The translations under genes were made by a program, and so were the position numbers. This document shows, in pieces, positions 14,841 through 38,626 of a stretch of 64,000 nucleotides of DNA. The stretch lies in contig NC_092611.1 of the NCBI RefSeq assembly GCF_047663525.1, positions 6,175,001-6,239,000 of the forward strand, in the 5' to 3' direction. The stretch is from Anas platyrhynchos. Its lineage: Eukaryota; Chordata; Aves; Anseriformes; Anatidae. How positions within the stretch are numbered: position 1 is the first letter of the stretch; the number at the start of each line of letters is the position of its first letter. Under the pieces are notes generated by a model, which was given only the letters and a program-made list of their open reading frames with translations, was not told the DNA's origin and made no database searches.

Positions 14841-15028
14841 GTGGTTGTGGTTGGAGGATGTGATGACATCACAGACTTCAGCGGGAACACGGGGCTTTTA
14901 AAAAGCTGAAAGAAACATCCTGACAGTCAGTTATCACATCCCCCGTAAAGGAGTCAAACACACGTTAGCCATTAGAAAGCCCAACTGTCTTCATCAAAGA
15001 GAAAAAAGACTCCGTCCTGCCACAGAAT
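14841..15028 (+). promoter_or_regulatory. POU2AF1: POU2AF1 proximal promoter and 5' UTR
   Basis: Upstream of the POU2AF1 start codon lie, in order, a RUNX-type TGTGGTT at 14846-14852, a CRE/ATF-type TGACATCA at 14864-14871 inside the dyad TGATGACATCA, and a TATA-like TTTTAAAAA at 14896-14904. That spacing would put transcription initiation near 14930 and leave about 100 bases of 5' UTR. A CREB-type site in the mammalian BOB.1/OBF.1 promoter is reported as I recall. Site functions here are inferred from sequence only. Confidence 0.55.
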
Positions 15029-18000
15029 ATGCACTGGCAAAAATGTAAGTGAGCTCTGATTGCCTTTGTTTTTCCTAACTGCGGTAAAAGATGAAGATTG
15101 TAGTGGATAAGTGAGCATTAGCATAGCACGGGAGACAGTACTCTTGAAGAGCGGCGTGTCTCAAGAGAGGCAAATGAGAAGGCATGATGCTAATTTTCCA
15201 GCAGGGATATTAAGACAGGGCAGCATCGCTGCTTTGTTGGCATTCGTCATTATGAATCAAGTGGAAGACTATGATTCATAAAAACAATAACAGGATGCAG
15301 GTATTATATCAAAGGTTATAGTGGTTACATACCAGAGAATTTTCCTTTTTAAAAGTGAAACCTGTGAGAAATCTTATTTCTGTGTCTTTTTTGATATGTA
15401 CTTTTTTTTTTTTTCAACTAATAATAAAGCTAAAGAGCGATGCAGTTGAAGGCAATACAGTTATGAGTTTACAGGAAATCAGTTTTCTTGTTTTCAAGAT
15501 AATTTTACACCTCTTGGCCCACCTTTGCTCGAGTAGTTTACCGATCCTGATACAGGTAGGTGTTTGCCCTTTTTGTGCAACTCTCGCTCTCACTGCGTGG
15601 ATCTGTAGATGTGCCTTTCTGCAGCCCTGCCGCCGTCCTTGGCACTTCACCATGCTGTTCAGTTAACCTCGAATATAAATAATATATATATAACATATCT
15701 GAGCAGAAGAAGCTTATTTCTTAAATATTTGCCATTGACTTATCTAATATGGAACTAACATTAATATTCTTCTCCTTTATATAATAACCTGTAATTATCC
15801 AGCGATGGGTTTACTGTGCGTGTTGTTCTGAGCTTATTAACTATAAAGCCAGTTTTCTCTGCTATGTACTTCTGTTACGTTTTTCCTTTGAAAACTGGAA
15901 GCTCAGGTATCTATTTGTGAAATGACATTGTACAGTCTAACATCCAGAATTAAGAAGCTCTGAGTGCTTATTCAATCACATTTCAATTTGTCTGACAAGT
16001 ATTAAGCAGCAAGTGGGAGCGCTATGGCAACACACCTTGTTTCCTATTATCTTGGGCTGTTTTCAGAATCGGTAGGTATATGATGTGGAACATACTGCAA
16101 GATGATTAGATACAGATGTTATCTTCCATCTGAGAGGTGTATAAGTCTTCTGTGTTTTTTTTTTTTTCTTTACTGCAATGACAAAGCAATACTAACAAAG
16201 TGATGTCTTAGGTAGAACCAAATTGGTAAAATACGATATTTTTCCTTTGCATTGTTTCTTTGATACATGCAGTGCTTTCAAAGGTAAGCAGAAATTACAA
16301 GCCTGCATCAGAGGAGATAAAATCCCCGTATTTTGAAGTCAGCCATCTCCCCTGTGAGAGTTTCCAGACAACAACTGCCCATACCTACCTGTCCCCTTGT
16401 GCCCTCTGAGCTTCTCAAGACCAGAGCCTGCTGTTCCAGCACTGCTTTCTGCTGTTTTGAAAGACTTCATGAGACCCCGCAGCTGCCTAGACTTGGCTTC
16501 TATTGCTGATGAAAGCCTTTTCACGTCAGTCAGAAGGAGCAGCCAGGCTTGTCTCTGGCTCCTGGGCTGCTAGATCAGCCTGGCCGTGTGTTTACTACGA
16601 CATCAGCCAGAGCCGAGGGGAAATTTCTGTAGGTGGCTGTCTAGGTGACTCCGCTGTTGGTCTTTGCTGTCTTTGTCTGCTGTGTCATGGCATGGTTGGG
16701 CTTCCTCAGTCTCATGGACCTTTAGTGGTTTTTTTAGCTAAATCTAAAGATGGGATTACTTTTCTGGCATTAAACGATTATCTTGCTTCTTTCCTGTACC
16801 ATTAGTAACGACTTTGACTTCAGTTACCCACTCCGCTGGAGACTCCCTGTGCGACTGCAGGCAGATTGCTCAGGCCCCTGCAGGTATTCACGTGCCAGGT
16901 CTCAGCAGTTTCGGTGGAAGTCAGGTTTCTCAGTAGCTCTGTGAGTCTGCATGTGGTCTCTCTGGTGCTCCTGTAGTCTCTGGCAGTGTGACCAGCTGTG
17001 GCCTCAAGTTTCCTGCGGCACCTGGCTCAAAACACCTGGGACCACACCAAGTCCCAGTGCCCACATGCAAGCCATTGGCTTGCTCGAGACTTCAGTTAAT
17101 AAAAAGGCAGTCTGGGTGCCCAGGGAGCTTGGTGTCTGCTTGCATGAGCCCTGGGCTAATGTCATAGCGTAAAAACACTGCCCTGCTCTGCTCCCCACCT
17201 AGGAGATAGGGAGAGCTTTCCTCTGCCGCGGAGGGAGTTTCATTATACTTAGTCTTAAAATGAGATATTTGTGTATTTTAGCAAAAGGGCATCCCGGAGA
17301 GATGGGCAATAAGTCTGCAGGTAGCTTCTGAGGTGTGGGTGAAGCTTTCCCCACGTATTGGATGGAACATCCCATATTCAGTCTAGAAACAGATGGCTTT
17401 ATCCCTTGCAAGAGCAACTGTTTGCAGACCTGTGGTACCGTGTGGCTGAAGAGCCAGGTAAATGTGCCCCAGGCTCACACCTAGGTATGCACTTGTAGGC
17501 ACGGATGTCAGGGTCTGACAGTGCTCACCAGCAGGTGAGTGACTTCCCTGGGCTTCAAGCTGCTGCTTTATGCAGTAACCACGGTACAGGGGCATAGCTT
17601 GTAGGTGTAGGACCCACAGGTGCACAAGTAAAAGAGAAATTATCCCACTGAGGTTCTGGGGCAGCAGGATGCTGGATGAATTGAACCAAAAGAAAAACAA
17701 AGGGAGGCACAAACAAGCGTCAGTGAAAATCAACTGGAGTTGGGCATATAATTTCCAAAAACTTCTTTGCAAATCCTGGAGTATGTCCCTGGTTTCTGGA
17801 GGAGGCTGGATGCGAAAACAGCAATCAGTAAGTCCAGCTTTACATGCTTAAACACCATATTTTAATCAACAAGATGAGTAGGGAATGTCAGATCCATGCA
17901 GGTTGTGTACTGTTATGGTGCTGGAAGGGAGCAAAGAGCCTGCTGGATGCTGACCCACTCCTGCCTTAGCCATGCAGAGCTGGTTACCCAGCCAGAGCTG

Positions 18001-21000
18001 TAATTGCAGCTCAGCTCATGGGCAGTGCCAGCCTCAGTGTAAATGTCGGGGCAGAAATCTTTGCTCCATCTGTACCTGCACGAAAGGAGACTCAATAGAA
18101 GTTCTTCCAAGATGCCTTGGTATGGATTAAAACTGTCCTTTGGCACAACAGGTTTCAAAAGAGTGCTGTCATTTCCATGCTTTTCCCCAGTAAACGAAAA
18201 CAAAGCAACCAAAGAACAGAAACACAAACCAACTGAAAACCGGAGTGACACAAGAAGGCTGATTTAAATAGGTGTCCCCTCGGAGGGCATTTCTCGCCGG
18301 CACCTCCTGGAGGGGAACTGTCTGTGGAAAGCCCTGCAGGGGCAGCAGGCCCGCTGGTGAGCATTGCCCCCAGCTGCTGTGGCCCTCGCATGGCCCTCGT
18401 CCTCCGGGGAGCCTCGCATGGCTGCTCCTGCACGCTGGAAATCCTTCCCGCGGGGTCACGGCACACTGCACCGCTCTGCAGGAGCGGGGCCCTGAGCTTC
18501 CGCTCAGCAAAACCCCAGAGAGGCTCTCGGCCCGAAAGCATCCCCTCCCACGGCAGGAGCGAAGTGACTGGTAGGGGCTTCCCAGCTTTTTTGGCAGGAT
18601 TCTGCTGAATGGAAGCCGTCCCACCGCGCCGCCGCACAGAGCTGGGAAATTTCGAAGGCACGGCGCCGTGGGCTTCTCTTCCCTTGTGTGTCTTTATGCA
18701 GAAAGTTACCTCGTGTTGTGTTTTGGAGACACGACGAGCGTGCTTTCCATGCAAATGATTTCTGTTATGAGAGGGTAGGCAAGCAGGTTGAAATTCTCAA
18801 AGCGTTTCACGTTTTGGAGGTGTTTTTGGTGAAGGTAAAATGCTTTGGACACTCGGCTCTTCGTGAGCTCCAGCGGGACTTGTGCAGACGAGGCAGGTGT
18901 TCAGCTACGTAGCTGTCCCACCGACTGCTTGGATTCCCCTGCAACTGAGATATGTCAAGGTGGACCTTTGAGAACCTCTTCCCAAATGCTTTTTAAGTCC
19001 TTGAAGCCTTTTTCTGCCCGCAACAGATGTCGGGCTCTATACACCTCTTCTGAAAGTATCAGAAAATGAGACTGAGAGGTGAAACTGCAATATGTTGCGT
19101 CTTGTGAGGCTTAATTTTGGTAAAGCCCCAGTGGGAAAGATGGATAGTACAAAAGCTGAGTCCATCCATGCCTTACAAAGCAGGTGTCAGGCTCTATGAA
19201 TGACCACATAAGCAATTAAATGGAAAGCTTGCATTACTAAAATGGAAAGAGTATTATGGGCTGGGAGGAATTGGGACGTGCGGGTGAGACTTATGGTTAA
19301 GACACTTTCTGTCTATCTCAGCTTCCCCTTTGTAGCAGGGGTTCTCTTATTCTGAAACCAATCATTTTTAGTAGCCTTGCCACTACATGGCCAATGCAGC
19401 CACCTCTACTGGGCGCTTGGAAGCTCCATTTCACTCAGGAGACCTGAAGCAGCAGGGATGATTAACCACCCTTTCATACTGGTTCCCAAGTGTCCCCGTG
19501 ATTTTGATTCTATCCAGGTGGAAAAAATACAAAGTTGTGTTTGTTTGCCAATCCGCAACATCTTCCTTGTGTTGGAGCAGAAAGTAGGCTCTGCACGGTG
19601 CCCCCCTGACTTAGGTTTTCTGGAGGTGTGAAGGAAGGAGAGCTGCTTCAGGAGGACCCTGTGCAAACACATGCTTTGCTTACAAGAATGACCCAAGTAG
19701 GGACAACGGCCTATGGATCTGCGAGGATCCAGGGTTAATTTTAGTCTTGGAGCTCTTCCAGCTGCAGATAAACATCTGAAAATAAAGGTGCTGGGCATAA
19801 TGCTGAAATACACCACGGTCAGACCAATCTGCTTCACTTCGGTGGGTTCAGTGCTGTGTAACTGGGCAGAGAGAGAACGGGCCAAATGCTGTACCGAGTT
19901 GTTGGTAAGCAGGTGAAATATTTAGTCTATTGATTTAATTATGCTAAGAACCCTCCCGAGTTCATTTCCTTATGCTGAGCAATGAACCATTGCTTGTCTC
20001 TTCTGCTCTTGCTCCGAGTCCTTCTGGTTAGTGTAGAGCACATTCTCCGATCAGATGTTTGCTTAGTGCTTTGCATTTAACTACATCTTTTTTGAAATAC
20101 CCACCCTTAGTGTGACAAAACCACTCTGGTTCAGTTCTCCTTGTCAGGGCTGTCTAAAAAAATAAAGCAGTAACACTTCAAAGGAGGTCTGGGATGTGTC
20201 ATATACCCAAAGTGCTCTGTGCTCAGCCCTTTGAATGCACGATGACATGCAAGCATGGGGTCCTGAGACGTGTCATTTCAGAGGGAAAAGCCATTGACAA
20301 GATAATAATGCAACGTAATCGAATGCAATACAGATAAATATTTTTGTATATATTGTTTTGTGATTTATTTGGCAATGCACGCATGGTTATGTATCAGAGA
20401 ACAGTTTGCAGGTTATTCAATCTCAGTGCTGGCCAGAGAGGTCTGGTAGTCGTTCCCCCCTGGTACCTACTCGCCTCCCAGATCTGTTAGCACCAACACA
20501 TCTCTAAAATGGGTCTTGGTAGCAATAACTCTGCTTTTTGTTTCCCTTTCAAGGTGCAGGAAAAGGCATGGGGTTGCAGGTGGGTCACTTCAGGGAACTT
20601 CACTCTTGACTGCTCTGGTCGGTTAGGACAGGGACACGCCCTGGAGGATGCTGAGGGCTAGCGATGAAGGTGAAGTGAAGATCCTTTCGTCTGGGTGACT
20701 CCTTGTCTGGCTGCCATCCGGGATCCTGGGCAGTTCAAGGGGTTTCTGTGCTTTGGTTCCCTGCCCTGGACTTATCACCAAGCCAAGACAAAGAAGGGTC
20801 ACTATTTTTTTTTCCTACTTCTGGTGATATATTGTAGGAAACCATTTAATTAGTGAGCAAATGGAGATGGGTGGTCTTCGCTGGCCGTAACAAGGGAAGC
20901 CTCATTCTCCAGTGCACTGTAAGCCTCCCAGCTGGGTGGCTGTGCTCGAGGGAGCATGGAGACCTGAACAAATATTGAACCATTTTCTCCTTTGCATGAA

Positions 21001-24000
21001 CAGGTACAGGGGTTGTGCATGGAGCTGGAGCCTTCAGGCCATGTACTGCAGTGCCGAAATACCCCTGGGGGGCCTGGCAGGGTGCTCCTACAGGAGCCAG
21101 GAAAGCCAAACAGGCTAAGGGCTGGTTTTCTCCTGGTTGTATAGGTTTGTAACAAGCTGTTTTCAAAGGGAATCTGACTGCCTAAGAATTACAGACCCTG
21201 CTTTACCAGGAGTTTTAGGACCACTGGAAAGTGCTTTTACCACTTGTATAACGCACATCCTCTTGGGCAGCCGACCAGCATGGGGATCTACCTCTCGGTG
21301 ACCCTTTCAGCCTTGTACAGGGATCCTGGCAGCACTAGGGACTGCACGTAGCTTTCCTTGCTTCTCCTTGGTCTGCGACTGTGCACAGTCAGGTAGGCTG
21401 CACGTCGATACGAGGGGAGCTGGTTAAATAACACGCACAGGAGGGATTGCCTGGCTAGCTGCTAGGAGCTGCGTTTTATCAAAGGAAAATACTTTTCACA
21501 GTGCTCCATGATGTACTTTGGAACATTATCAATACCATAAAAGCAGCCGTTTCAGTTCTGCTGTCAGCTCTGATCACATGATTCATTTCCAAAGCAACAG
21601 ATTCAAAATAATATTATTAGATTAATACTTTGAAATATTTTTAAAGTATCTTTGAAGGATTCTTTGTCTGAATTAAATATAAAATGTGGACAAATACAAT
21701 CCAACTTTTAGTCCCTCACTTAAATATTGCTAAATGGGCATTGGTGTCTTATTCTAAAACGGTTTTGTTTGATTGCAGTCAAAGCATCCAAGTAGTGTAT
21801 CCAAAGCCAAGCCACTTTTTTTTTCTTTTTATTATCCAAAGTTCACAGTGTACAATAAAAGTGTCAGCAGCTGCCTTATGTAATTTGCTCTTCGAGATCG
21901 AAGTCAGAAAATCGCTAGCCTGTTAATTGAAATCTAATTTTTTCTTGTTATCCAAGGGTAGCTGTTTGCTTTTTGATGCTACTGTAAATAAGAAAAAAGA
22001 TTTCTATTGTGTTTCTTTTCAATATTTTATTATGTTGGGGGTGAAAGAGGAAAAGAGAAAACTATTTGCACTGGTAACTCTGATCAATTGATAAGCTTAT
22101 CACACACCAGTGTGTGAGCAAAGAAAAAGTAAATCTTCTGAGGCAGTGGCAAGTGCGTCGCTTGCTGCGGCAGGCAGGCAGTCATGCAAGCCCTGGAAGA
22201 TTAGCAGTGTATTTCAAACTGAAAATTGGCCTGATGGGAAATGGCTCTGACTTGTTTGAAAGGTTTAAACTGATCTGCAGTTCACAGGGGTGTGAAGGCC
22301 AGCGGTGCTAATAGGTTTAGTGATCTGAAACTTGTCACGCTTCAATGTTTGTAGCCTTCCAACAGCTGCTTGCCATTATCCTCCCTCCAATTTCGGCAAT
22401 GGTTAAATACAAATGTAGAGGAAGAAGCGTTTTGAAGGTGCTTGGTTTAATTGCTTGGCAATGTCTTTGCATGCTTTCTCTATCTGATCTTTTTCTCAGA
22501 CCAACATTTCCTGGATGTTATTTAGAAGAAGACATCTTTTAAAAGCCTGTGTCTGAACATAGGGACTCTTGATGCTATGGGATGCATTTTGGTTATGTTC
22601 TCCAACGTGCAGGCAACTGAAGGCCAGAGTTTGTAGAATTACTGCCCAAAGCACTAACCTGCTCAGCTTTTTACTCACCTTGGGCAAGTATTGTACAGTG
22701 CCTTGCTGAAGCTCCTGTCAGCCCATGAGCTGGGCCTGGAGCTGTTCCCCAAAAGGCCAGCAGTGAGGTCCCTGTTGGCCATGCCTGCTGCATGCAGCAC
22801 GAGCTGGCCCCACAGGATAAAATTCTGTTTTCTTCTAGGTACAAACCAATTTTAAGAATATTTGGAGGGAGAAGTGTATTGACATTAATAACAACACCAA
22901 TGCAGTTGTCAGATCCTCAGCCAGAGCCCACTGAAAGGGGCACCCTGCAGGCTTCTCTCTGCAGAGGCTGGATCGAGAGGCTGGGTGGCACAGGGGTCTG
23001 GCTCCAACCATCACTGAGGACTTTTGCTGTTGTCACTTGGTACATAGAGCTGGGGGACTGCTGTGGTATGGAACTTCTCATTAGCTGCAGTGTTATCCAA
23101 CCACTTTGAAGGATTACTCAGAAGTCTTCAGGGTTTGTGCTCGGCTTTTGTCGATGTTCAGCAAATACAGCGAGAGATAACGCTGATGAAAGGAGCCTGA
23201 GCATGTGCACACACCGTGGATTTGTAAGGCGGCCTGACAAAAGCATTGCAATGAACTAAAACATATTTACACATAGAAACTATTGCAAAGCTTCCTACTG
23301 GCTGCATTAAATTTGCCCTTTTTTTTTTCTCCACTCCTGATGCTTTGTACTGCTCCAGCTTCAGAGAGCGGTTGCAAAGCGAACCCTGGTGCCTGTCAGG
23401 GAGGGCATGCGTCTGTTTTGTGGTGCACAAAGTGTAAAAGAAGCCAGAGCACAGCATGCACTTGAGCACCGAAACACAATGGTGCTGTTTATTTGTCGGA
23501 ATGGAACCTGGGCATGCGGATGTTGGTGCATTTGCAGCTCATAACTTAAATAACAATGTACCCGTCTGGTTTTAATGCGAGTCAGTTCAAGACAGGCAAA
23601 ATAGTTTATTCTATGCCAACCCTGGTGTAGGAAGTTGAGGAATACTAAATCCAGGTACATTCTTTATAAGGTTGTTGTAATGGTTATTATTTCGCAAAAT
23701 GTCTTTATTTTTAAAAGATCACATTTCTTTGGCTGTATGAGAAATTGTCCACTGAAGCCCAAAGTCATTTTGCTGTGGTTCTTCTGTAATACTCAGACAT
23801 GGTACACACTTAACAGTGGAAAAGCAGCTGTGCTAGCATTATTTTTATTTCTGGAGGTCAGCTTGGGGGGAACCGAAATATGTTCTGCAGACTTTGGTTT
23901 TTTTCTTTTTTCTCTCTTTTTTTTTTTTTTTTTTTTTGGTTACTCTGCTTACACCGGAAACTCTGAATAGGTATATTTGTCAGCTTTTACAGTAAATTTC

Positions 24001-27000
24001 TTCTTCCCCATCCCCCAAACCTGGAGCCAGAAACTGCCATCCCTCCCCACCCTAACTCTGCAAGGAGGCTCTCTGCAGTCGGTGCGATGACTCAGGGACA
24101 GGACAGTGCCTGAGAGGAACGCTTCTGCCTCCCGTGCAGGCTGCACTGCAGCTCCTATTTGCTTTGGCAGAGTCGATGGTTTTGCTCAGCATAAACAGCA
24201 GTAGCATCATCTGATTCTGAAATGTTCTCAGTAAAGTACAGATAAATCATTTCCAAATGTAAATAAATCCCTTATAGGACCAGGAAAGCACCTTCAGGAT
24301 GGGCTTCATTTCAGACCTCCTGAGCTCATTCTCAGAGCTATCAGTACAGCTCATGTCACAGCACTTTTTAGCACTGTCTTCATTAGCACTCAGATAAATT
24401 AATATCAATTAAAATTTAAAAAGCAAAATGTGAGCTGTGTTAAAAACCCTTGCGAATTCCCGTGTGCAGAATTAGTGACCTTCATTCCCTTTGCTCACTG
24501 CTTTTCCAAAGCCACAAGCTCTATGAGACTGCAACCAACCCAAGATGAAGTCCCACAAGGAATGTCCAGAGAAAGCAAATGCAGCTCATGCAGAGGCTGA
24601 AATGCCATCTCCTCCAGCTACTGCTTTAAAGCGTGGAATTTTCCCAATATGCTTAAACATATTTTAGCATACAAACAAAGAAAACAGTTCAACACATAAT
24701 TGTAGGGTTATCTGCTACCAAAGGTATTTATAATGGCCTTTCAAGATTTCATGATTAAGTGGTATGTAGTGAGGCAGAAAGAGCAAACTCAACAGTACGG
24801 CACAGTTGAAGGGAAGTAAGTACTTCATTTCTGGAAGAAAGTAAAGCAGAAAGGTTTATTCTGTTAAATATTTTGGGGTTCACTTGCAATATTTGTATTT
24901 AGACTCAGTTTTTCGCCCTCCAGGAAGGTGTTAAAGGAATATCTAAGTGTGCATATGACTGCATGTAACTGGAGGAGATGATCAGAATTAAAGCGATTCC
25001 TCTTGTTCTGTGCTGCAAAGCATCCACATCTTAATCAGAAAATTAGAATAAATACTTCTGGGGTGGAATTAGGCTTGGATTTGAAGGTTTGAGCCAGATA
25101 TCCAGCTGCACTTCATAGACCAAAGGCCTGTTGCGATCCTTAGGAATGGGGACTTATCAAGCAGCGTGTTTACAAATCAAAGTGCAGTTAAAAGGGGCAG
25201 GTAGCGAGTCCTGCTATCGGTGGTTTTACAAACAAGGGGCCTTCCTGAGCTTTTTTATCCTCTGGCCTCCTGCTATTAACTGCCTCCGAATACTTGATGT
25301 AAAATATGGCTCAATAATATCGGCTGACGAAGAACTGGGCTTCCTCTGCTTTCATTGCCGCAGGGCTTTGCGATAGGGCTTTTTAGCTGGCTCTGGGCTT
25401 TACTTTTCAAATCGAGGTCTGAGAGGTGCTGTCAGTACAGCTGTCCATGAAGCTGTGTGCTGGCCCAGCTGGCCAGGCCACAAACCTGCACAGCACAGCT
25501 CTGTGTGCAGCAGAGGCATGACTCTGCCCCAGGATGGCACAGGTACACCCGGTGCTCCCAAAAAATAGCTGTACAGTCATCAAACTAGTGATAGGTTAAA
25601 TGGCTTTCGAAATGAGGGTGCTTCTCTGGTTTGGTTGTGTTTGTATCTTGCTTCTAAGCAGCAACCATAAAGTATTTCTCTTGAATGTCTACTGTCTACT
25701 CATTTATGCATCTACTTGGCCAGCGTTTAGGTTATTTAATATGCTGGGTATCTGCTGACCAATCGTTATTATGTGCCTGTCAGATAAAGTCAGTCTGAGC
25801 TGTCCTTCAAGTGGATGTAAATCACTGCGCAGCCAATCTGTGGCACTGAAGCAATGTAAAGCAGATACACAAAAGTGAAGTCTCAGGAGGAATAAAACAA
25901 GCAAGCTATTTTTGGCAGAAGCCTGAAGAAATCAGAATATCGTGCTCAGGAGTTAAGGGGAAAAAAAAATAACAAAGTGGAAAATCAAAATGAACACACT
26001 GCAACCTCGCTGAAGACAGCAGAATGAAAGGTTCAGTCTAGAGGCAGTTTGAGGAATAACAGTGGTTGTTCATTGCCCCTCTCTTATTTATTTTAATCTG
26101 GTAGCTGATAACTTGTAAAGAGGGACACCCTTTTGCATGTCCCTTCGGAGCGTGTGGCTCACCACTACCACTCTCCTGTTTCACACGTGTAAGAAATGTG
26201 TCCACGTAGAGGTGTGTAGGTTTATTGATAGCCATCACTTTTAGGAATGCAGCGTTATCCTCTGCAGAGCAAGTGATCCCCTTTCTGTGCACTACATCCT
26301 CCCCGGCTTTCATAAACGTCTAGAGTGATGCAGCTATTTATTATCAGAGCGTGTTCATCACACCCTGCACCTGATGGGGCCCAGCTCCTGCAGACCATGG
26401 CAACACCTGCCTGTGCGGTGGGGACACCGCAGGCTGCTTCCAGACCGTCCCCAGCTCTTCTGCTTTCTGAATGCTCTTTGGCAACAAAGGGGCTGAATCC
26501 CTCAGTATTCCTGCAGCCAATTCACAGCTGGAAGGAACTGCAAGCTTGCTTAATTCAGGTTGGGTTGTCCTCGTGATCCATCTGTGTGATCACAGCATCT
26601 GAGCAGCAGAGGCAAAGAGGAGACCTCGGACTTCATCTGTTGGCAAAAAGACATCACGAGCTAAGAAATGTGCACGTACACTGCCGTGTTGAGAGCACCC
26701 TGCAGACAAGGGGCTGCCATGGGGATTTTGGCCTTTTGAGTGGCAGGAAAGGAAAATAAATGTCACCTGCATCTTTTTCTTTTTTTTTTTTTCAGCTTCT
26801 GCTCCCGAACAACAACCACAGCCTCGCCCCTACCAAGGTGTCCGCGTCAAAGAGCCAGTGAAGGAGCTATTGAAAAGGAAACGGGGAAATGTTCACAACA
26901 CCAGTACCACAGCAGCTACAACGGTAGGAGAAGAAACAAACTCAGGAGGAAATTTTTTCTTTGGTAGCTAAATGATTGACCAGCCCTGGCACCAGCTGGC

Positions 27001-29065
27001 AACACTTCATTAATGAAAGAAATCTTGGAGGTAGTGGAGCCTCACGTTACCTGGAGATACCACTAAACAGATTTTCAATTAAATATTATAAATACATTTA
27101 ATGCAAATAAAATAAATATGTTTTCACCTTTAAGGTGCTGAGCAGCTTCAATCATCTTTGAGTTAGTTGAAGGAGGAAAGTGCTTTGCACTTGGCAGGGT
27201 CTAATTCCTAGGAACAGAAGGTGGCTTGGGATTTAAGCACACTTAGCCCTTCTGAGAAGGGCTGGAATTTAATGCTTACGGTTTTAATCCCTGGATGTTT
27301 TTCTTTTCTAGGTTGTTTTGCCCCATCAGACGCTCCCTTCCTATTCACCAATGGGTAATGATTTCCTGCCTTTCTCAGTGTTTGTCAGCACTGCTGCAGG
27401 GAAAGCCACCCTGGACTGAGTTGTGATCCTCTCCTGTTTTTCAGGCCAGCCTTGCGCCGATATGGACGGTGCAGCCCCCGCGCTGCCTGTGACAGACGAA
27501 GGAGCTCTCTGTTCCGGCTGGCTCTCCCAGCCCTCTCCCACATCCTTGCAGCCTTTAACCCAGTGGACCCCTTACCCTGACTACGTGTCCCACGAAGCAG
27601 TCAGCTGTCCGTACAGCGCCGACATGTACGTGCAGCCCATGTGTCCCAGTTACACGCTGGTTGGACCCTCGTCTGTTCTGACTTACACTTCGCAGCCACT
27701 GATCACCAATTTTGCAGTAAGTCCAACATCCCTAGCTATAAATGATGGCCAAGGCCCCACCTTCCAACAAATGTCACGGGGAGTTTAGGGTGTAATTAGT
27801 GTCACTTAGTTATTGTAATGTCATTTGTTCTTGCATCCATGCCACGGAGCTGTTATAGCGTAGGCCTTTCTGTACTGAGCTGGGCATTGGAGTGGTTTGA
27901 GGACAAAAAGCTGCAGTTGTATTGAAACCAGAGACCCCACTGCCATTTCTCCAGCTCTCTGGAGTGCTCCTGCAGCACTTTCTGTGTCATTAACACACAG
28001 CCTGTTCATGCTGTTGTCCTGGGAAATGAGTCCTCTCCCATCACGTCAGCAGCAGGGCTGCCACTGCCCCGAGTTTGTTCAGCTCTGCCAACAGTTATTT
28101 ACTGTAGGGGAATATCAGATGTGTTGCTTTTACTGTTGTCATCAATTCCAATTTGGGGAGGTGTATTTCAGCTTGGATTTGCAATTGCTGAGAAAGCAGT
28201 TGTTCTGACTGGGTTTACTCAATAGCTGATAAATGCTGTCGTCTGGGCAAGTGCTTGGGACGCAGTCTCTCCAGAGATCTGAGTGGTTTTCAGGGGATTT
28301 TTTGCTGTTTAATTCCAAACTTTTAACAAAGTAAATGGAATTCTAGGAAGCATCCACTGGGTGGACCAGGAAAATTTTGAATTTGAATTAACCTCCTTCA
28401 GCCCTATGGCAGCAACTCTTGTGCCCATGGGTTCGCCTTGCAAGAGGTGCTGTCAGCACAGGGTGTAGCTGTCTCATGGGCTTACCCTGAGGGTGGGAGC
28501 GGGAACAGAAAGCTCGAGGGAACTTGCCGTGAGGGTGAGCTGCTGCTCGCAAGCACCTGGGACACCCACAGCCACCGCTCTCATGGGAGCCCGCGTGGGA
28601 AAACTGTCACGCTGGTGTGAAGCTTTGCCCAGAGGGACAGGAAAAAGGGATGTTAAAAGTGAGACCGAGCATCCTTCACCTCGTTTTGCGTCCTCCCCCT
28701 GCCCCACCTAACCGATTGCTTGATCTCGTTTAATTTCTCTCCCACTCCAACAGCCCCGAAGTGCCACCCCGGCCGTGGTGCCGCAGCTGGAGGTGGCGGA
28801 GCAGCAGCCACCCCTCACGTACTTCCCGTGGGCACAGCCTCTCTCCGCGCTGCCGGCCTCCACCTTGCAGTACCAGCCGGCTTCTTCCACGCTCCCTGGG
28901 CCCCAGTTTGTGCCCTTGCCCATCTCCATCCCCGAGCCGGCCCCCCAGGAGCTGGAGGACGCCCGACGGGTCATCGGCACGCTGCCCATTGAGAAGCTGC
29001 TCCTAGAAGATGAAGACAATGATACGTATGTTTTAAACCACGCTCTCTCTGTTGAAGGGCTTTAA
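15029..29065 (+). CDS. POU2AF1: POU2AF1 (OCA-B / BOB.1 / OBF-1), POU-domain class 2 associating factor 1; five coding exons
   Basis: B-cell coactivator that clamps the POU domains of OCT1/OCT2 on octamer DNA in the nucleus. Coding exons are 15029-15044, 26796-26923, 27312-27354, 27445-27716 and 28754-29065, all with GT/AG junctions and phases 1-0-1-0, giving 256 aa, the human length. The start MHWQK matches human MLWQK. It joins across an 11.75-kb intron to SAPEQQ and the OCA peptide PYQGVRVKEPVKELLKRKRG (residues 17-36), which binds the POU domain and DNA. Downstream blocks EAVSCPYSADMYVQP, GPSSVLTY, LTYFPW and LPISIPEP are near-identical to the human protein. The C terminus YVLNHALSVEGL matches human YALNHTLSVEGF. 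The final exon contains a possible internal donor at 29025/29026 (see the I-kappa-B gene). Identity is essentially certain; splice usage is inferred. Confidence 0.97.
18749..18756 (+). promoter_or_regulatory. Perfect octamer ATGCAAAT in POU2AF1 intron 1
   Basis: Exact match to the POU-factor octamer, 3.7 kb into intron 1. OCA-B acts only at octamer sites where the fifth position allows base contact by the coactivator, and ATGCAAAT is the permissive form. Binding is inferred. Confidence 0.4.
19240..19350 (+). repeat. Possible second MIR-like relic
   Basis: The order 'tatggttaagacactttctgtctatctcagcttcccc' split around 19290-19330 resembles the 3' half of a MIR core (the 'gttaagtcacttaacctct...cctcagtttcccc' region). 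The match is weaker than at 9.4 kb and borders are uncertain. Confidence 0.35.
27101..27108 (+). promoter_or_regulatory. Perfect octamer ATGCAAAT in POU2AF1 intron 2
   Basis: Exact octamer in the short intron between exons 2 and 3, inside an AT-rich stretch. Possible autoregulatory input; not demonstrated. Confidence 0.35.
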
Positions 29066-30924
29066 GTTGCACATCTGGGGCCTGATCCTCGCTTACTCAA
29101 TGCTCCCCTTGGCGTCAGGGCGAGTTTTGAGTAGAGAGGAAAGCAGGCGGGGAGGGTGGGGGTGGGAACTCGGCTTGGGATTTTGTTGTCCACCTCTAGC
29201 ACGTGCGTGGAGTGAAATTCGCTTTGTCCTGGGGCCTAGCACAAGACGTCTGTGCTGTCACAGCTCCTGCCGCCTCTCCCAGGCAGGCTTCCAAGCTGCA
29301 TAGTTCTTGTGCTCAGCCTCAGCACGAGGTGACTTTCATCCTCAGGCACAGGGCATGGCCTAAAATCAATAACCCCTAGTGTAGCCATGGCCAGCTGTAG
29401 TGTTTGGTGAGGGTACCTCACCTCTAATTATTATTTCAAAGACCTTTTTCAGAGGACTGCTTTCTAGAGCTCAGTGTAATGCCCTGTATGTGTCTTCGCC
29501 CTGTCCATGAAGGAACCTCTTCCTCATTTAGGCAACTAGAAAATATTTTGGGGGCCTAAACAGAGATTTTTCTTGTCTAAGTTGAATTGTCCCTTTGGAA
29601 AACCAGAAAATATGAAGGGAACATTTGGTGCACTGGTGCAGATAGATGCATCGGTCTGAAGATGCCAACGCAGTTGATCTGAGTGTCAGTGCAGCTGGAC
29701 AGCCCTGTGCACAGAGCAACCCAAAGTGGGCCAGGTGAAACGTTTGGTTTCACCAGAAGGTGAAACTTGAAGGTCTCACCTTGTGTGTAAGTGCGAGACA
29801 GACACGTAGGTGTGGGGCAGTGCTTTGGAGTCCTGGTCAAATCCAACGGACAGGTCCTGGGCCCACTGAACTCACCGGGAGCTCTGCCTGAGTCAGGATT
29901 GCAAGACATGGCCCGATGTCAGGAGATGATTAAGACAGGGTCTCCCAAAATCTGGCCTTCGGTCTAACAACAAATTCATGGCATTACTGTTAGCTGGCAA
30001 TGCTTTCATTTCTTCTGTAGCATTTGAGCGTGAAGTTGGTGATGTGCTGAGACAGGGGACCTCAGTGACCTCTCTTGTGCCTTACCGCTACGGAAAGTTT
30101 CTCCGCTGTAGTTTCCCAGGTTCACAGGTGCACACGTTTGCTTTATGGCTTTCTGGTTTTCTTTCCTGGAGAATGAGCAGCTTTACCTTTTCCTCTGACG
30201 CAACTGTAAATATTATTGCTGATGTTCAGGAGTGCCATGCCACAAACAAACAGACTCGCAGGAGATGTACCCCCGGTTAACTTCGTTTATTGTTTCCTTT
30301 AAAAATGAGGGAGTCTTGACTGATGAACACAATTTCTCTGGGTTTTTCTGCTTTCTAAAGCCCAGGATCCGTAGGTGATTTTAGTGTTTGCAAGACTATG
30401 CAAAATAATTTATTGCACTGTTTATTACCTGGTGCCCAGCACTCCGATTCCCACCCAGGCAGTATTTCAAGTGACTTTACAGTTTATGCCTGAGTGAGGT
30501 TTGCAAGCTCACAACAAAAGTCTTGAGGACTTGTAAGCATATTTCATTGTTTAATATTAACAAATCTGCTAGACACGAGCAATAGATCATGTAAGTGATC
30601 GTAAAGTCATTTGGAAATAGCAGTAGTTGAGGCGCATTGTCATTAGTGGCTTACATTTGCAGAAAAACCCAGCAAAGAAATTAATCAGAAGGAGCTTGGT
30701 TCACCACTGGTTACTCCAGCTTTATGAGCACAGAGACATTCAGTAGGTAAAGCTGGGGTAATGCAGCTGTGAACCAAGCCTGTGGTTGCTAAGATTGCTT
30801 TTAAATTTCTTTCACTTCAATGTATGTAAATTCTGTGTGTGGATATAAAACAAAGACGAACTGTTTCAGAATTTCTTTCTGGGTTGTTCTGGTTTAGAAA
30901 AAGACAAAATCTTTGCCAATAAAG
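29066..30924 (+). terminator. POU2AF1: POU2AF1 3' UTR with poly(A) signal
   Basis: After the stop codon at 29063-29065 there is no further coding signal until the ankyrin exons. A canonical AATAAA at 30919-30924, followed by T-rich sequence, is the most likely end of the short POU2AF1 transcript. It gives a 3' UTR of about 1.9 kb. If the internal donor at 29026 is used, this whole stretch becomes intron, so use of this signal and that splice would be mutually exclusive. Confidence 0.55.
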
Positions 30925-32033
30925 ATCTACGGTAACTTTCACATGCCTAGAGTGTTTTATTTCCTGTCCAAAAGCATAACCCAGCATTGGTTCAGCAGTT
31001 AGTCAGTTCAACAACTACGCAGAGGTTAGAGCCACAGATCAGCTGCTGGGCTTTCTGCTCATTTTGCACATCAAGGCAGACTAAAGAGGAACCCCACGGT
31101 CCCAGTGTGGCTTGGAAGCAGTATTTGCTCACGTAGTCATTACTCACACGAGCACTCCTGCTGCTCGGGTGGTAGTTTGATCCCTGTTCCCCTCCCTCGG
31201 TGTCCCTGGGGATGTGAGTGTGCAGTCAGATCTGATGCTGAGCTTGACCGAAAGCTCTAGACCAGCCAGAGAGCTGCCTTTCTACTTCCCAAAGTTGTAA
31301 GGTATGGTTCTGGGCTACGAAATCACCCCGGGGGAATCACCCCAAACAGTCACCCGCTGTTTTCCCCTGGGCAGAGGGGAAGTGCACAGCTCCCCGTGCT
31401 GCCAGGCATGCCCGGTGCCCTGGAAATGGGCCGTGGAGGGGTGGAAGTGGCACGTAGCTCTGTGCAGTGCTCTGCAGCACCAGCCGTAGCATGTCCCACA
31501 TTGTCACCTCACCATCGAGCCTGTCACTGCTATGGGACGTGACAGCTCTGTGTCTTGTGCGCAAGGTAAGGACCTGGTCCACCCAATGGCGGTTTTAATA
31601 GAGTTTAACTGGCTCAGTTTACAAATACCCTGATGGGAAGGGGCTGTTTGTACCTCTGGGTGCTGAGATATTACCAGCGCATCACCCCAAACCAATTGGG
31701 GTATGTGATACAGCACGCTGGGCCCCAGCACAGGGCTTTGGGGAGGACTCAGGAACCCCCTGGCACAGGGGCAAATCTCACACAAAAGCGCTGAAGTGGG
31801 AAGGAGACAGCGTGTCCAAGCTCAGGAGTGCTAAGGGGTCTTGAAAGCAGCATTTTTTTCGAGGTAGGAAGCCCTTTCCCGGGGAGTGGGTGATTTCAGT
31901 GTCGAGCCCTTGGGGCTTACGGCATGGTTTTGGGGCCCTCTGGGTACAAACCCCCCAAAGCAGCAATGATACCCTGTAAAGCCATTTGCTCCCAGGGCCA
32001 AGCAGTGATCAGTGTCTTTATTTACTGTCTTAG

Positions 32034-32677
32034 AATTCTACATATTTATGCAGCTAAAGGTATGAGGGCGTTTGCCTTGGCAGCTGCAGAGCGCATGAAA
32101 GAGCTGCGAAGACTTGATGCCAAAGAGCACCGAGGAAAGGTAACGCACACCATCTTCTCCTGCAAGCAGCAGCGTTTGGGATGGGCACAGACTTTGCATG
32201 CCTGGGAGGAAAGCGATGCCACAAAAAATCCACCTCGGCCCCTCTGTAGTGCAGAGGAAGCCTGGGGCAGTGACGTGCCTTGCTGAGGTGCCCCTGGCAG
32301 ATTCTGCAGGTTAGGTGGGATGAGGATGGGCATTATGGCTTTTCAGCCGCAGAGTGATCTAAGATAACACTGGCCCTGGAAGATGCCAGCACATTGGCAG
32401 CAGTCTCTGAGGGTGAAGGTTTATGCCAGCAGTGCTGCACCTGGCATAAATAATGTTTTGCAAATGCTGGGCTCGGGTTGTCAGCCAAATGAGGGCTGCA
32501 GCACACTAGAGGGAGCTCTGAGGAGCTGAGAAATGTCCCCTCTGCTCTGATACCATGGGTCCTGGTACATGGCATTCAGAATCTGCCTGTGAGCAATCTT
32601 TGGCTTGTGCACCTTTGGCCTTCTAGATAGCATTCAACCCAGTCTGCCTCTCTGCCTCTCCCTTTCTCTCTCTCTCT

Positions 32678-32714
<37 letters not shown>

Positions 32715-35700
32715 GATGCTTCTGCTTCTAGACTCTCACAGTTTATCTGCTGTGCTATTTTCAGACTCCTCTGCTGGTGGCTGTCACGGCCAGGCAGCCA
32801 GCTATTGTCTATGATTTGATCCAGACAGGAGCAGATGTCAGTGCTGTAGACAACAAGGGGCAGTCAGCCTTGCATCTCGCTGCAATGTACGGGTACGCCC
32901 AGGTCCTGCAGGTAGGAAAAGCTCTGATGGTTTTAATTTCTAGCAGTATAAGCCTACATTAAAGCCTCAATAGCAGTGTCTTTAAATAACAATCTCAGGT
33001 GTCAGCAAGCAATGAAAACACACAGAAGTCTCTCCTTCCATCACTGTGTCAGGGATTATCTTCCCAGGATATTCCTGTTTTAGGATTATGCTCACAGCTA
33101 ACATCAGCTCCTGTTATGGAGGGAATAGCTCCAGCTTAATTGGGGGGGAATAAGTTCTTTTTGCACACCACGGCTCTCAGTCTGCTGATGGGGCCAGGCA
33201 CAGTGGGCTGTGCTTGCGCCCTGCTGCCTGTGTTGGAGCAGGGTCCCCAGGGGCTGCAGGCAGCTGTGGGGTGTGGGGAGAAGAAGCACTAATGCCAGGC
33301 CAAAACCCTCTCTGCGAGTCCAGTGCCAGCCAGAGGCGAGCAACAAACCGTGTCCGGGTTCAAACCAGCTGAAGGAAGAGCAGATGTGAAGACAGAGCCA
33401 GAGCAGGGACATAATAGGGCACATTTTTCACATTTAAAGCAAAGCCAGGAGTCGTTCTGGAAGATTTGCCAGGGCATGGGAGAAACCAGATGCTCCTGTA
33501 CAGGCAGAATCTTCTAGAGCTTTCACAAGCTATCTGGCCAGAGGGAGAGACATACACATGACCATGATCATCCTGAGTAACCCTTAGAGCCCCCCAGATC
33601 TTTCCACGGACAGGGTCTAAACCTAAGCAGTGTGCCAGCCGGGCTCTGACAGCCCCAAAGAGGAATTTGGCACAGTAGAAAAGGCACTGGGGGCATTTTT
33701 GGGAGGGCTTACACAGCACAGCTAAGCATATTGGAGTGTGTCTTTTCATTGTGTAGTTTTTAGCCATAAAATAGCATTAAGAAAATGTGACTGCCTTGAT
33801 TCGTGTCAGGGCTGCTTGCGGGCAGCCCCATTGCAGAGCCTCATGGCAGCCCCAGGGCTGCCGAGGGGGTTTACCTGCGGGCTGGGCACGGGGCACGGGG
33901 TCCTCTGAGGATGAGGAAGGTGTCGCTGGAGGTGCTGCAGGTCCCCTGGCACGCTGGCGGTTTGCTCCAGCATTCATGAGCTCTGCCTTGCACACATGCT
34001 GCACTGAAGCCCGAGCAGGCAGTTAATGTGTAACGTCATGGGTTCCTTGGAAAACAGGTGTTTCGCTCAATGGGGACAAGTGTTTTACATTCAGATGATT
34101 CCATCAATGCCTCCTGGAGTGCCTTATGGTAGAAAAGCATCTTTTTTTTTTTTTCTTTAATACCTGTGAAAGGGAATGAGAGAGAACAAGGAAAAATACA
34201 CACAGCTTTGCTTCTCGCTGGGGTCAGAGCCATGCAGTGCTACAGGGTTTCTTTTGTTTTGTTTTGTTTTCTAATGGCTTAAGCATCTAATCTCTAATCA
34301 TCAGGCAGCCCAAAGCTACTTGTCAATATTTGAGCTGGATATATTATATTGTTGTTATGATAAGAGAGCACAAGCCCTAACGTTCCTGGATAATCCTCCT
34401 GCACCTTGTCCAACTTGCCGAGGCTCTGGATGAGTCACGGCGCTGCATCCTCAGCCAAGATGCTGCAATGCGAGCAGCTCGCTTGATTCACTCAAGAGCA
34501 AAAAGTGCTGCTCTGTAATAATTTAGACGAGGAGCAACCTGGCCGCATCCCACCAGATCCATAAGGTTCTTAAGTTAGAGATTTCAAGTTTTTGCCACTG
34601 TAACAAGCTACAGCTTCAGCCTCCCGCACATTAAAAAATTAATAATGAAAAGCAAACCCAGCCTGAGAATTTCCACCGTCAGCAAACTTTCAGGTAATCA
34701 AGTTTTACTGTACGTATAAGGGAGAGATTTTCATTTATCCTTGCCAAGGATAACTCAGAAGAAATACGAATTGGTGTGATGAAGCCATACATTTGCTTAA
34801 TCCAGGGTGAAAGTGGGGAGACTAAAACCCTTGAGCTGAGTTTTACTACTAGGGGTTGAGAATCTAATAGGATCTAACAGGATCTCATACTTTGATGGAT
34901 TTTAGAGACCTAGCAAATATGATCATCCACCCCCCTCCCCGCTGCTGCTAGTTCTAACGGCTTTTAGCCTGGACAATGTTCTGCTGAACTAAAATTCTCC
35001 TTTCCCATTTCTCTGTCACTTCTAGGTTATACTGTCACTCGGTTTTCCTCTTGATTTAGAAATGAAGAATTTTGAAGGTGAGACTCTTTGTGCAAATATT
35101 TTATCGTGATGGTAAAAAAAATAATAATCAGGGATCAGAGAAGGATCTAGGGCCTTAAGAATACACTTAAATATGTTGTCCCTGCAAGCCCTTACGTCCT
35201 CTCTTTCCATCATTGTCTTTTCTGGGGCTGTCGTCACCTCCCTCCCTCCCTGTTTTCCAGGCCATACCCCCCTGCACTGTGCTGTCCTGGCCCACAACGC
35301 CCTGCTGCGGGAGCAGGGGCACCCAGGGGTGACGAAGGAGCAGCAGGAAGGTCTCCAGCACCAGAGCGAGGAGCTGGAGAGCTGCATCCAGCTCCTGGTG
35401 CAGGCAGGAGCCTCCATCTACAGCCGGGTAGGGAATCGCTTCTGTCTGTCCCTCAGTCACCCCTGTGCTGTTCGTTTGTATGAACTCTGACACTCGTGCT
35501 GCTCTCAAAATATCAAATTGGAGGAGAATGGACTGCTGGCAGAAGGAGCAAACCTGTTTCCCTTGCAAGGAGCTGGTTGCAGAGTCAGCTCCTGCCTTTT
35601 GGGGTTGCTTCCCCGTAGCCTGAGCCAAAGGCTGGGGATTTGGGTGGGTGCTGCAGGGAAGGAGGCGCCTCGGTGCTGCCCCTGAGCTGCAGAGCTGGCC

Positions 35701-38626
35701 TGGAGGCCTTTCTGCTGGGTTTACATAATGGCTTTAAGTTGCTCTGCAGGACGTTCATTGTGCTTTGTTTCGCTGTCTGTAATTAGGACGTGAAAAGCAA
35801 CAAGACAGTTCTGCATTACACAGTCCAGGATGCCAACATCTCCCTGCTTAGGTACTTCCTGGAGCTGAACGCTTTCAAATCCAGGGATTTTGTCAACAGC
35901 AAGGTGAGTCAGGAGCTGCCTGGACAGGGTCTGTGTGCCAGTGTCTGGGCAGAGGAGGTGCTGAGAGCACCGAGCTGCCTGCAGTGGGAGGCTGCAAGCA
36001 CGTGGAGCCATTGGGGGATCTTTGGGGTCCTGCAGAAACCAGACACTCTCTTCCTGTACTCATTTTTCTAGAGGGAAAAGAACAACAGCTCGTGCTTCTG
36101 AGCTTTTTTTTTTTTTAATGCCCTGAAACTGCATTTTCCAGTCAATAGGCACCTCACCTGGAAATGTGCTGGAATTGCTGTGAAACGGAGACACCTCTGC
36201 CAGCAGCAAGAGCTGACAGAAGGAGAGCAGCTAGGCAGGGAAGAGAGGGAGTGGGAAGTGGTTACTCGAGAAGGAGCCCGAACTTCATTATGCTAGGCTG
36301 AGAAAACAGATCTGCAGTGATGCAATGTTGTGCTGCTGGCAGCAAAACAGCACCGAGGGACGGCTGTTGAGGGCTGTGCATCGGGGACCTCTCCTCTCGG
36401 AGGGGCCATAAGCAGCGAGCGGGCAGTGCATTTGCTTTGCATTTCAAGAATTTCGCAGGCTCAGCCTTGCAGTCCCTGGAGCATCCACAGGCCTGTGTCC
36501 AACAGAGAGGAATCAAACATTTGCTGCTGACACAGTTTTTACTGGGAAGCAGAAACTGGGCAGCTTCACTTTTTTTTTTCCCCCTACAGATTTCTGTTGG
36601 GCTGGAGGAGAGGAAACATGTTTTGCTTTGTGTGGGGGTAATTGCACTGGGGTTTTGCTATTCTGCGAGGTGAAAGGCCTTGCGCTGTCTTTCACTACAT
36701 TCCTGCTGTATCTCTGAAGACCCTCTAGGCAGGTGCTATCTTGTCCGTGGGAGGCTGCTCTTGTCTCTTGATCGCAGTCCTGTGAGAGCTCCCTGCTGCG
36801 ATAGCATCGCTTGGAGTCTCCAGTCTTGTTTCTGAGATGCCTGGGACAGTGAGAAATGTAACAGCGAGGCTGGCCGGTCCCCATCCTGGCGTTTTAGCTC
36901 TTCCAAGTATGACAAGAAGAAATCAGGGACGCTGTGTTTTGGCTTCCCTGGCTCACCCTCTGCTTGCTGTGGTTGTTTCGTTCCAAATTCAATTCCTTGG
37001 GGATTTTACAGTGAGAAAAGCACTGAGGGCTTTGAGGTATTTTTCACCTGAAGGGTTTCTAGAGCCCAGATATTAAAGCTCTGAGCTGTTGTCTCACGTA
37101 AGGCCCATTAAAGTTAGTGGAGAGGCTCAAAGATCAGGCATTGCCAGATTGCCCCTGGAGGTTTCTTAGCCTCGTGCCTGGATTTGGAAGCCATCAAATG
37201 CTTCTGCCACAAAGATGTGGCAAAAAAAAAAAAAAAAAAAAAAAGTAAAATAGATGTGTCCTTTTTAATAAGAAATCCTATAAAGAGTTTGTAAACTATC
37301 CCTGGACTTTATGGGATGGTAAAATTGACAAGGATCTGCCTGTTCAGGGCTTGTAAAAATGCCTTGACTGGGAATAGTTGTTAAGGTTTCCATCCTAATG
37401 TCCTGTTTTGCTCGGTGCTTCCACGTCCCCCCACCTCTCTGGGAAGCAGACCCCAGGCACCCCTTTCTGCACTGTGGGTGCAGGTTGGGCGCAGCCCTTC
37501 CAAGGGCAACAAGAAACGTGTGATCACCTCGGAGAGGAAAAAACACGCAGCTGCTGCAGCGAGACCTGGTGCAGACTAAAAATAACTAAAAATACCTCGC
37601 CTCCTGCGTCTGCATGCGAGCTCCTCCTTGCTTAGAGCCGTTAGGGGTCATACCCCAGTGGGCAGGGGCGTGCGTTTGGGGTGCCCCAGCTGCAGCCCCC
37701 GTGGGGTGCCCTGCACCCTCTGGTGGCTCTGCAGCTGGCCTGGGGCACAGGGCCATGCGGGGACACGGCTGCTGCTCCTCAGCCTTGCCTGGCACCTCTC
37801 GGAGCAGCTCTGGGTAGTTTCAGGGGTCTGGGGACATCGGGGGCACGCACGGTCAAAGGGGATGCCTGGGGATGCACAGGTCAGCAGGAGCTGGTACGGG
37901 GCTGCTTGTTGGCCCAGGGCAATTGTAAGCAGGTGGCACAGCTTCTCAGAAGGTTTCTCTTACTTGGGTCTTCTTCTCCCCTTGCATCAGGCTCATGGCA
38001 ACACAGCTCTGCACATGGCAGCTGCCCTGCACTGCCACAGGAACCAGAAGGAGATCATCCAGCTGCTCCTCGACCACGGGGCGGACCCGAGCATCCGAAA
38101 CTTGGACAACGATCAGCCAATCCACATGGCTCCTCCTGGGAAGGCCGGGGACCAGGTACATCCCCAGGGAAACTGAGGGCATGTCCTGGCCGAGCTGTGT
38201 GAGGTGGGCCTGAGGTTGTGGTGGTGTGGGCTGGGGGTTCCCACTTCACCAAATCCCCAATCAAGGAGCCCAAAGTGGGCATCAGCAGCTACTCCAAGCC
38301 CACCTGGGGAGATACCGATGTATAGCTCTTTCACAATGGCAGCAAGACTCAAATGAAGATCAAGTTTTGTGCCTACGGGCCTGAAATGGCTCCTGGAGCT
38401 CATTTTAGTCTCCAAAATGTTTTTATGTGTGTACGTATTCCTATACATGTATGTAAGTGTGTGTGTATGTGCATCTGGGTGCCTGCACGCAGCCCATGTG
38501 TGCACCCCCCCAGTTTCACCCGGTACACTATAAACTTTTACATTTTTTTGGCAGATCAGGCATTTGCTGAAGAAAGGGAAAATTGCATCTGCATTTATTT
38601 CCTGCCGCCGAAATGCCAGGTCCTAG
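32034..38626 (+). CDS. Nuclear I-kappa-B, NFKBID/NFKBIZ-like, seven ankyrin repeats; 5' end not separately identified
   Basis: Seven exons with GT/AG junctions: 32034-32139, 32765-32911, 35026-35077, 35261-35427, 35787-35903, 37991-38155 and 38555-38626 (stop), about 275 codons. Seven ankyrin repeats are visible: ILHIYAAKG, KTPLLVAVTARQP, SALHLAAMYG, HTPLHCAVLAHN with the long insert typical of this class, KTVLHYTVQDAN, NTALHMAAAL, and a final DQPIHMAPPG. Closest by memory is NFKBID (shared SNKTVLH, AHGNTALHMAAAL, KTPLLVA, RRLD..EH.GK). LHCAVLAHNA and the GDQIRHLLKKGK tail resemble NFKBIZ. Such proteins bind NF-kappa-B p50/p52 dimers in the nucleus and modulate transcription. The first exon begins in phase 2 and needs an upstream exon ending in a D-x-D-T coding sequence. 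The only good candidate I find is inside the last POU2AF1 exon. The gene may therefore be the 3' half of a POU2AF1 long form. Confidence 0.88.
32662..32711 (+). repeat. (CT)n followed by T31 tract
   Basis: A CT dinucleotide run of about 18 bases passes into 31 uninterrupted T residues, ending 53 bases before the ankyrin exon at 32765. It is an unusually long pyrimidine tract for a 3' splice site and is likely to vary in length. Confidence 0.9.
37222..37244 (+). repeat. Poly(A) run, 23 bases
   Basis: Uninterrupted A23 in the intron before the sixth ankyrin exon, followed by GTAAAATAG. No retroposon body is recognisable upstream, so a simple repeat is the safest reading. Confidence 0.9.

Follow-up and report, generated by a model that had tools for sequence, protein, structure and literature searches.

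An OCA motif is already known in the nuclear I-kappa-B protein I-kappa-B-zeta (NFKBIZ), and the only carriers of this motif named in the available text of PROSITE and of PMC12807641 are POU2AF1, POU2AF2, POU2AF3 and I-kappa-B-zeta. The available text of PMC9574490 describes Asp-451 of I-kappa-B-zeta, located N-terminally in ankyrin repeat 1, as critical for p50, and places Lys-717 and Lys-719 near the C terminus of the mouse protein of 728 residues. BCL3 and NFKBID are p50-preferring nuclear I-kappa-Bs with a conserved Asp, as far as the available text of PMC11393961 goes. We analysed a window of 64,000 nucleotides (nt) from the duck Anas platyrhynchos (contig NC_092611.1, here C25:6175001-6239000), in which POU2AF1, the gene of OCA-B, is followed on the plus strand by seven 'orphan' exons of a nuclear I-kappa-B ankyrin domain. 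We consider it probable that these are two halves of one composite gene, sister to NFKBIZ, with a choice between polyadenylation and splicing. The evidence comes from the DNA of one genome of a single species, and the assembly searched comprises 1.26 Gb in 42 contigs.

The locus resembles NFKBIZ in having the OCA motif ahead of an ankyrin domain of the nuclear I-kappa-B type, in the phases of the OCA exon (1 in, 0 out), in a phase-2 intron just ahead of the ankyrin TxLH motif, in the ends of ankyrin exons A1 to A6, and in the presence of an equivalent of Asp-451. It differs in its location (C25, against C1 for NFKBIZ), in a middle region made of OCA-B sequence, in the sequence of the ankyrin domain (45.6% identity over 259 columns, A1 to A6), and in a stop codon and an AATAAA past the junction, which also permit a short OCA-only protein. 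The resemblance to POU2AF1/OCA-B (PF09310) covers the entire short protein, C-terminal tail included; the last exon here, however, carries a phase-2 GT leading to intact ankyrin exons, whereas the last exon of mammalian POU2AF1 is, we presume, plainly terminal. With BCL3 and NFKBID the locus shares a nuclear I-kappa-B domain and its Asp, and it differs from them by the OCA motif. Because the intron has the same position and phase as in NFKBIZ, homology extends to both sides of the junction and the OCA exons have common phases, the composite architecture is strongly supported. An earlier note on this DNA had proposed one OCA-B/I-kappa-B protein built like NFKBIZ; the architecture stands on intron, homology and phase, and production of the protein is a prediction that has to reckon with a weak donor.

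An in-frame junction inside the last POU2AF1 exon

The POU2AF1 pieces (15029-15044, 26796-26923, 27312-27354, 27445-27716 and 28754-29025) total 731 nt, and the seven ankyrin exons between 32034 and 38626 total 826 nt. Joined through a donor at 29025/29026 in the last POU2AF1 exon to the acceptor before 32034, they form 1557 nt in one frame, encoding 518 amino acids with a single terminal stop, exactly as the earlier note had calculated; the acceptor it had judged good carries pyrimidines at 12 of 16 positions. With a slash marking the exon-intron boundary, the POU2AF1 exon ends in ...LLLEDEDND AC/GTATGT and the ankyrin exon begins with A ATT CTA CAT, so that the joined predicted protein reads ...IEKLLLEDEDNDTILHIYAAKG... 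across the junction.

If the donor is read through, the product is a 256-residue OCA-B with the C-terminal end YVLNHALSVEGL. This predicted short form matches the Pfam profile PF09310 (POU2AF1) over positions 1-249 of 249, C terminus included (E 1.3e-143), and it can therefore be taken as normal OCA-B and not as an artefact of an overlooked intron. The two products foreseen in the earlier note differ in standing: the short OCA-B is borne out by the full profile match, and the 518-residue form is predicted from the DNA. The ankyrin half finds its best match among PDB structures in I-kappa-B-zeta (9bor, E 3.3e-62); its exons A5 and A6 presumably also resemble NFKBID.

The junction also bears on the contact with p50. 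The position of Asp-451 was set on the 9bor chain with Lys-719 as the anchor, on the assumption that the interval between these residues holds no insertion or deletion; it corresponds to the first Asp in KDADGDT, which is encoded 5' of the intron. The codon aligned with it lies in POU2AF1 exon 5 (Table 1). The ankyrin exons alone therefore lack this residue, and joining them to OCA-B supplies it.

Homology across the junction in related genes

Beyond this locus, the closest ankyrin match in the genome is a gene on C1 that also bears an OCA motif (GPFQGVRVKNSVKELL); we name it NFKBIZ on the strength of the match between its ankyrin start and 9bor (E 1.8e-76). Its junction reads ...FLAKDSDGD AC/GTGAGT, with the next exon starting C TTC CTT CAC, at the same position and in the same phase 2 as in the window. 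Exons A1 (106 nt) and A2 (147 nt) are of equal length in both genes, and the ends of A3 to A6 agree in aligned position and phase, the lengths in the window and in NFKBIZ being 52/64, 167/170, 117/111 and 165/168 nt. In NFKBIZ, as in the third gene described below, exon ends were placed by eye from homology and AG/GT; for NFKBIZ A3 two starts are possible (64 or 52 nt, with one shared end), of which 64 was adopted, and the comparison spans A1 to A6.

A third gene combining an OCA motif with ankyrin exons is found about 15-22 kb before the window, near 6160-6152 kb (6160000-6152800) on the C25 minus strand. A candidate start exon and an OCA exon (KRYMGVRVKMPVRELL) are followed there by a pre-ankyrin exon of 638 nt and by ankyrin exons A1, A2 and A4. 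Its junction is again in phase 2, ...ADKLLAPDENGN AG/GTCTCC, followed by a 106-nt exon starting G CTG CTG CAC. A tblastn search of C25:6125001-6154000 gave no A5 or A6, so this gene may be shortened or diverged. The OCA exon is entered in phase 1 and left in phase 0 in POU2AF1, NFKBIZ and the third gene alike.

The acidic C terminus of OCA-B might resemble these junctions by coincidence, leaving POU2AF1 and the ankyrin gene as unrelated neighbours. Peptides rich in Asp and Glu are common, so that shuffled residues gain about 2 bits in the profile comparisons below, with the third-gene profile one shuffle in 500 beats the real order, and exon 5 also encodes the normal C terminus of OCA-B. The scans and profiles nevertheless speak largely against coincidence. 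Phase-2 GT sites with 12 open codons upstream were scored against pre-ankyrin peptides, the reference peptides having been picked after the junction was already noticed. Within 15000-32033, with NFKBIZ and the third gene as references, the POU2AF1 site ranks first among 532 open sites (score 47, the next 9). Over 144 kb on both strands (7803 sites), with NFKBIZ as the sole reference, the third-gene donor ranks first (27) and the POU2AF1 site second (22), ahead of a site scoring 15.

Against a joint profile of 9bor, bird NFKBIZ and the third gene, the ankyrin part alone scores 73.1 bits, rising to 88.1 once 22 POU2AF1 residues are added, a value that none of 500 shuffles of these residues reaches (mean 75.3, maximum 82.4). 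With a profile of the two NFKBIZ sequences alone the score rises from 69.0 to 80.2 bits, again matched by none of 500 shuffles. Default phmmer begins the stretch matched to 9bor within the part encoded by POU2AF1 (query residue 4 at chain residue 33, E 1.5e-26). In the same table many repeat-rich ankyrin chains outrank 9bor through summed weak stretches, and among the 60 chains listed 9bor alone has a stretch that passes by itself. NFKBIZ and the third gene share the phase and position of the junction, and all three genes carry the OCA motif upstream of it. Evidence from this one genome thus makes a chance junction unlikely, and coincidence as the full explanation of the locus very improbable; the two halves very likely descend as one NFKBIZ-like gene.

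Table 1. Features of the POU2AF1-ankyrin locus (window positions)
Feature	Position	Strand	Basis
POU2AF1 coding exon 1 (MHWQK..), phase 1 out	15029..15044	+	motif match; in-frame assembly; PF09310 match starts at residue 7 of the assembled protein
POU2AF1 exon 2, OCA motif PYQGVRVKEPVKELL, phase 1 in, 0 out	26796..26923	+	assembly; phases as in NFKBIZ and third gene
POU2AF1 exon 3	27312..27354	+	in-frame assembly; PF09310
POU2AF1 exon 4	27445..27716	+	in-frame assembly; PF09310
POU2AF1 exon 5, full form up to OCA-B stop codon	28754..29065	+	PF09310, E 2e-53 for the exon alone; assembly
GAT codon aligned with mouse I-kappa-B-zeta Asp-451	29009..29011	+	alignment; in POU2AF1 exon 5
Putative alternative 5' splice site AC/GTATGT, exon part ending 29025, phase 2	29026..29031	+	assembly; junction scans; U1 pairing
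AATAAA, candidate poly(A) signal of short OCA-B	30918..30923	+	only AATAAA/ATTAAA within 28900-32034
Ankyrin exon A1, 106 nt, phase 2 in, 0 out	32034..32139	+	equal length in NFKBIZ and third gene
Ankyrin exon A2, 147 nt	32765..32911	+	equal length in NFKBIZ and third gene
Ankyrin exon A3, 52 nt, phase 1 out	35026..35077	+	exon-end match to NFKBIZ
Ankyrin exon A4, 167 nt	35261..35427	+	exon-end match to NFKBIZ
Ankyrin exon A5, 117 nt	35787..35903	+	exon-end match to NFKBIZ
Ankyrin exon A6, 165 nt	37991..38155	+	exon-end match to NFKBIZ
Last exon, IRHLLKKGKIASAFISCRRNARS followed by the stop codon	38555..38626	+	DNA and frame

Proposed splice choice, donor strength and a possible separate gene

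POU2AF1 exon 5 would act as a composite terminal exon. There is one AATAAA, at 30918, between the OCA-B stop codon and A1, so cleavage and polyadenylation near it would give the classical 256-residue OCA-B, and splicing from the weak AC/GTATGT inside the exon to 32034 would give the 518-residue protein, which would carry the OCA peptide N-terminally and the nuclear I-kappa-B ankyrin domain C-terminally, together with the predicted p50-contacting Asp contributed by POU2AF1 exon 5. Like I-kappa-B-zeta, the long form would be expected to link a POU factor bound to an octamer with NF-kappa-B p50 bound to a kappa-B site. Immunoglobulin mu switches between its secreted and membrane forms by competition between a poly(A) site and a weak 5' splice site located inside the terminal exon; this system serves only as an analogy for the mechanism proposed here. 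The DNA shows the exon anatomy, homology on both sides of the junction and intron positions shared with the related genes; we infer that the junction is used, that polyadenylation and splicing compete for the transcript and that the long form would have these binding activities; present-day splicing into the 518-residue protein appears likely.

Several observations weigh against this reading. The donor, TAC/GTATGT, has C at position -1 and, in strength gauged by U1 pairing alone, reaches -1.4 kcal/mol, the weakest of 13 donors measured, against -5.3 kcal/mol for NFKBIZ and -5.6 kcal/mol for the third gene; 59% of the GTs on the plus strand of the window equal or beat it. A weak donor fits a minor or regulated isoform, yet it is the main evidence against use, and the internal donor of POU2AF1 could be a vestige. 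POU2AF1 has three exons between its OCA exon and the junction, where the third gene has one. The profile of the third gene alone rises from 48.7 to 62.5 bits with the POU2AF1 residues, but this is the comparison in which one shuffle of 500 equals or beats them. The interval 29066-32033 contains 45 ATG-initiated open phase-2 candidate exons, nine with a U1 energy at or below -5, and a non-homologous first exon among them is possible. Finally, the open ankyrin frame is weak evidence if drift has been short: in simulated neutral drift of 0.05, 0.1, 0.2 and 0.3 substitutions per site, 24%, 6%, 0.7% and 0% of 2000 frames were still open.

The same simulation bears on the view that the locus makes OCA-B alone and that its ankyrin exons, left as a relic, go unexpressed. 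The mammalian POU2AF1 locus, which we take to be without ankyrin exons, shows that these exons can disappear. Here, however, all seven exons have AG/GT splice ends and their frame is open across 826 nt, which suggests use provided that drift was long, and we give the relic very little credence.

The serious rival holds that the ankyrin exons now form an I-kappa-B gene of their own, driven by a separate promoter and beginning with a first exon that is short or non-coding, and that the POU2AF1 donor is left over from a time when both halves made up one ancestral gene. It accommodates the weak donor and the candidate first exons, the AATAAA at 30918 could terminate POU2AF1 transcripts ahead of A1, and short N termini occur among the nuclear I-kappa-Bs, for instance in I-kappa-B-NS. 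Against it, no CpG-rich stretch or CpG-rich promoter is seen between the two halves (observed-to-expected CpG ratio 0.19-0.45, from 29250 to 31999), and none of the 45 candidates adds homology: all score 70.1-76.2 bits with the joint profile, against 73.1 without an added exon and 88.1 with POU2AF1. Internal exons with an upstream acceptor before A1 were examined by the 12-codon homology scan only. The ankyrin exons by themselves also lack the residue aligned to the p50-critical Asp-451, and the junction peptide of POU2AF1 retains its family resemblance. On balance we regard a separate gene as unlikely, though well short of negligible, and prefer the composite gene, which predicts a junction clearly checkable in bird RNA-seq.

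Origin of the locus and its surroundings

A search of the whole assembly with the Cbl_N profile returns four exon matches in two places only, C25:6273089-6286580, about 60 kb past the last ankyrin exon, and C1:91547826-91608446 (91.55-91.61 Mb), 1.3 Mb from NFKBIZ. We take these genes to be CBL and CBLB. Cbl genes beside both loci are the pattern expected of duplicated chromosome blocks, and as one neighbour pair they constitute modest evidence. The pairing speaks for a single OCA-ankyrin ancestor from which NFKBIZ and POU2AF1 with its ankyrin half descend as sisters. The apparent continuation of the OCA-B gene into ankyrin exons suggests that OCA-B and I-kappa-B-zeta share one ancestral gene. 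The clause of the earlier note in which this locus preserves the ancestral arrangement from which NFKBIZ arose needs rewording, since the Cbl genes near both loci fit two sister copies of one OCA-ankyrin gene and not descent from this locus.

We lean, with some reserve, towards a history in which the POU2AF1 copy of this lineage is still whole, with OCA-B and an OCA-B/I-kappa-B protein as its two products, and the mammalian gene is an amputated 5' half whose C-terminal tail is a read-through of the old intron; mammals, we presume, have no ankyrin half beside POU2AF1. If the POU2AF1 locus indeed still has its own I-kappa-B half, the link between OCA-B and I-kappa-B-zeta would be one of common descent and not of motif borrowing, and the gene of a classical B-cell coactivator would gain a second, NF-kappa-B-binding product in a non-mammal. 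A literature search, with the two main OCA-motif papers and public gene annotation outside its scope, found no mention of an ankyrin half of POU2AF1.

A collection of viral contigs queried with POU2AF1 exon 5 and ankyrin exon A6 returned no relatives. In a collection of genome contigs, A6 matched 16 loci with bacterial or archaeal titles, 39-75% identical over part of 55 residues, which we judged to be generic ankyrin matches.

Two further OCA-motif exons lie on the minus strand of the window at 48154-48060 (VYQGVRVKITVKELL) and 58190-58081 (VYQGVRVKHTVKDLL), with phases 1 in and 0 out by eye; they probably belong to genes like POU2AF2 and POU2AF3. The tblastn listing for the ankyrin query holds no convincing match adjoining either exon. 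On the same strand, at 60717 (C25:6235717) and upstream of an OCA exon, ELGLITSDRNGNR precedes CAG/GTGAGT and ranks third of the 7803 junction sites when both references are used, perhaps by chance.

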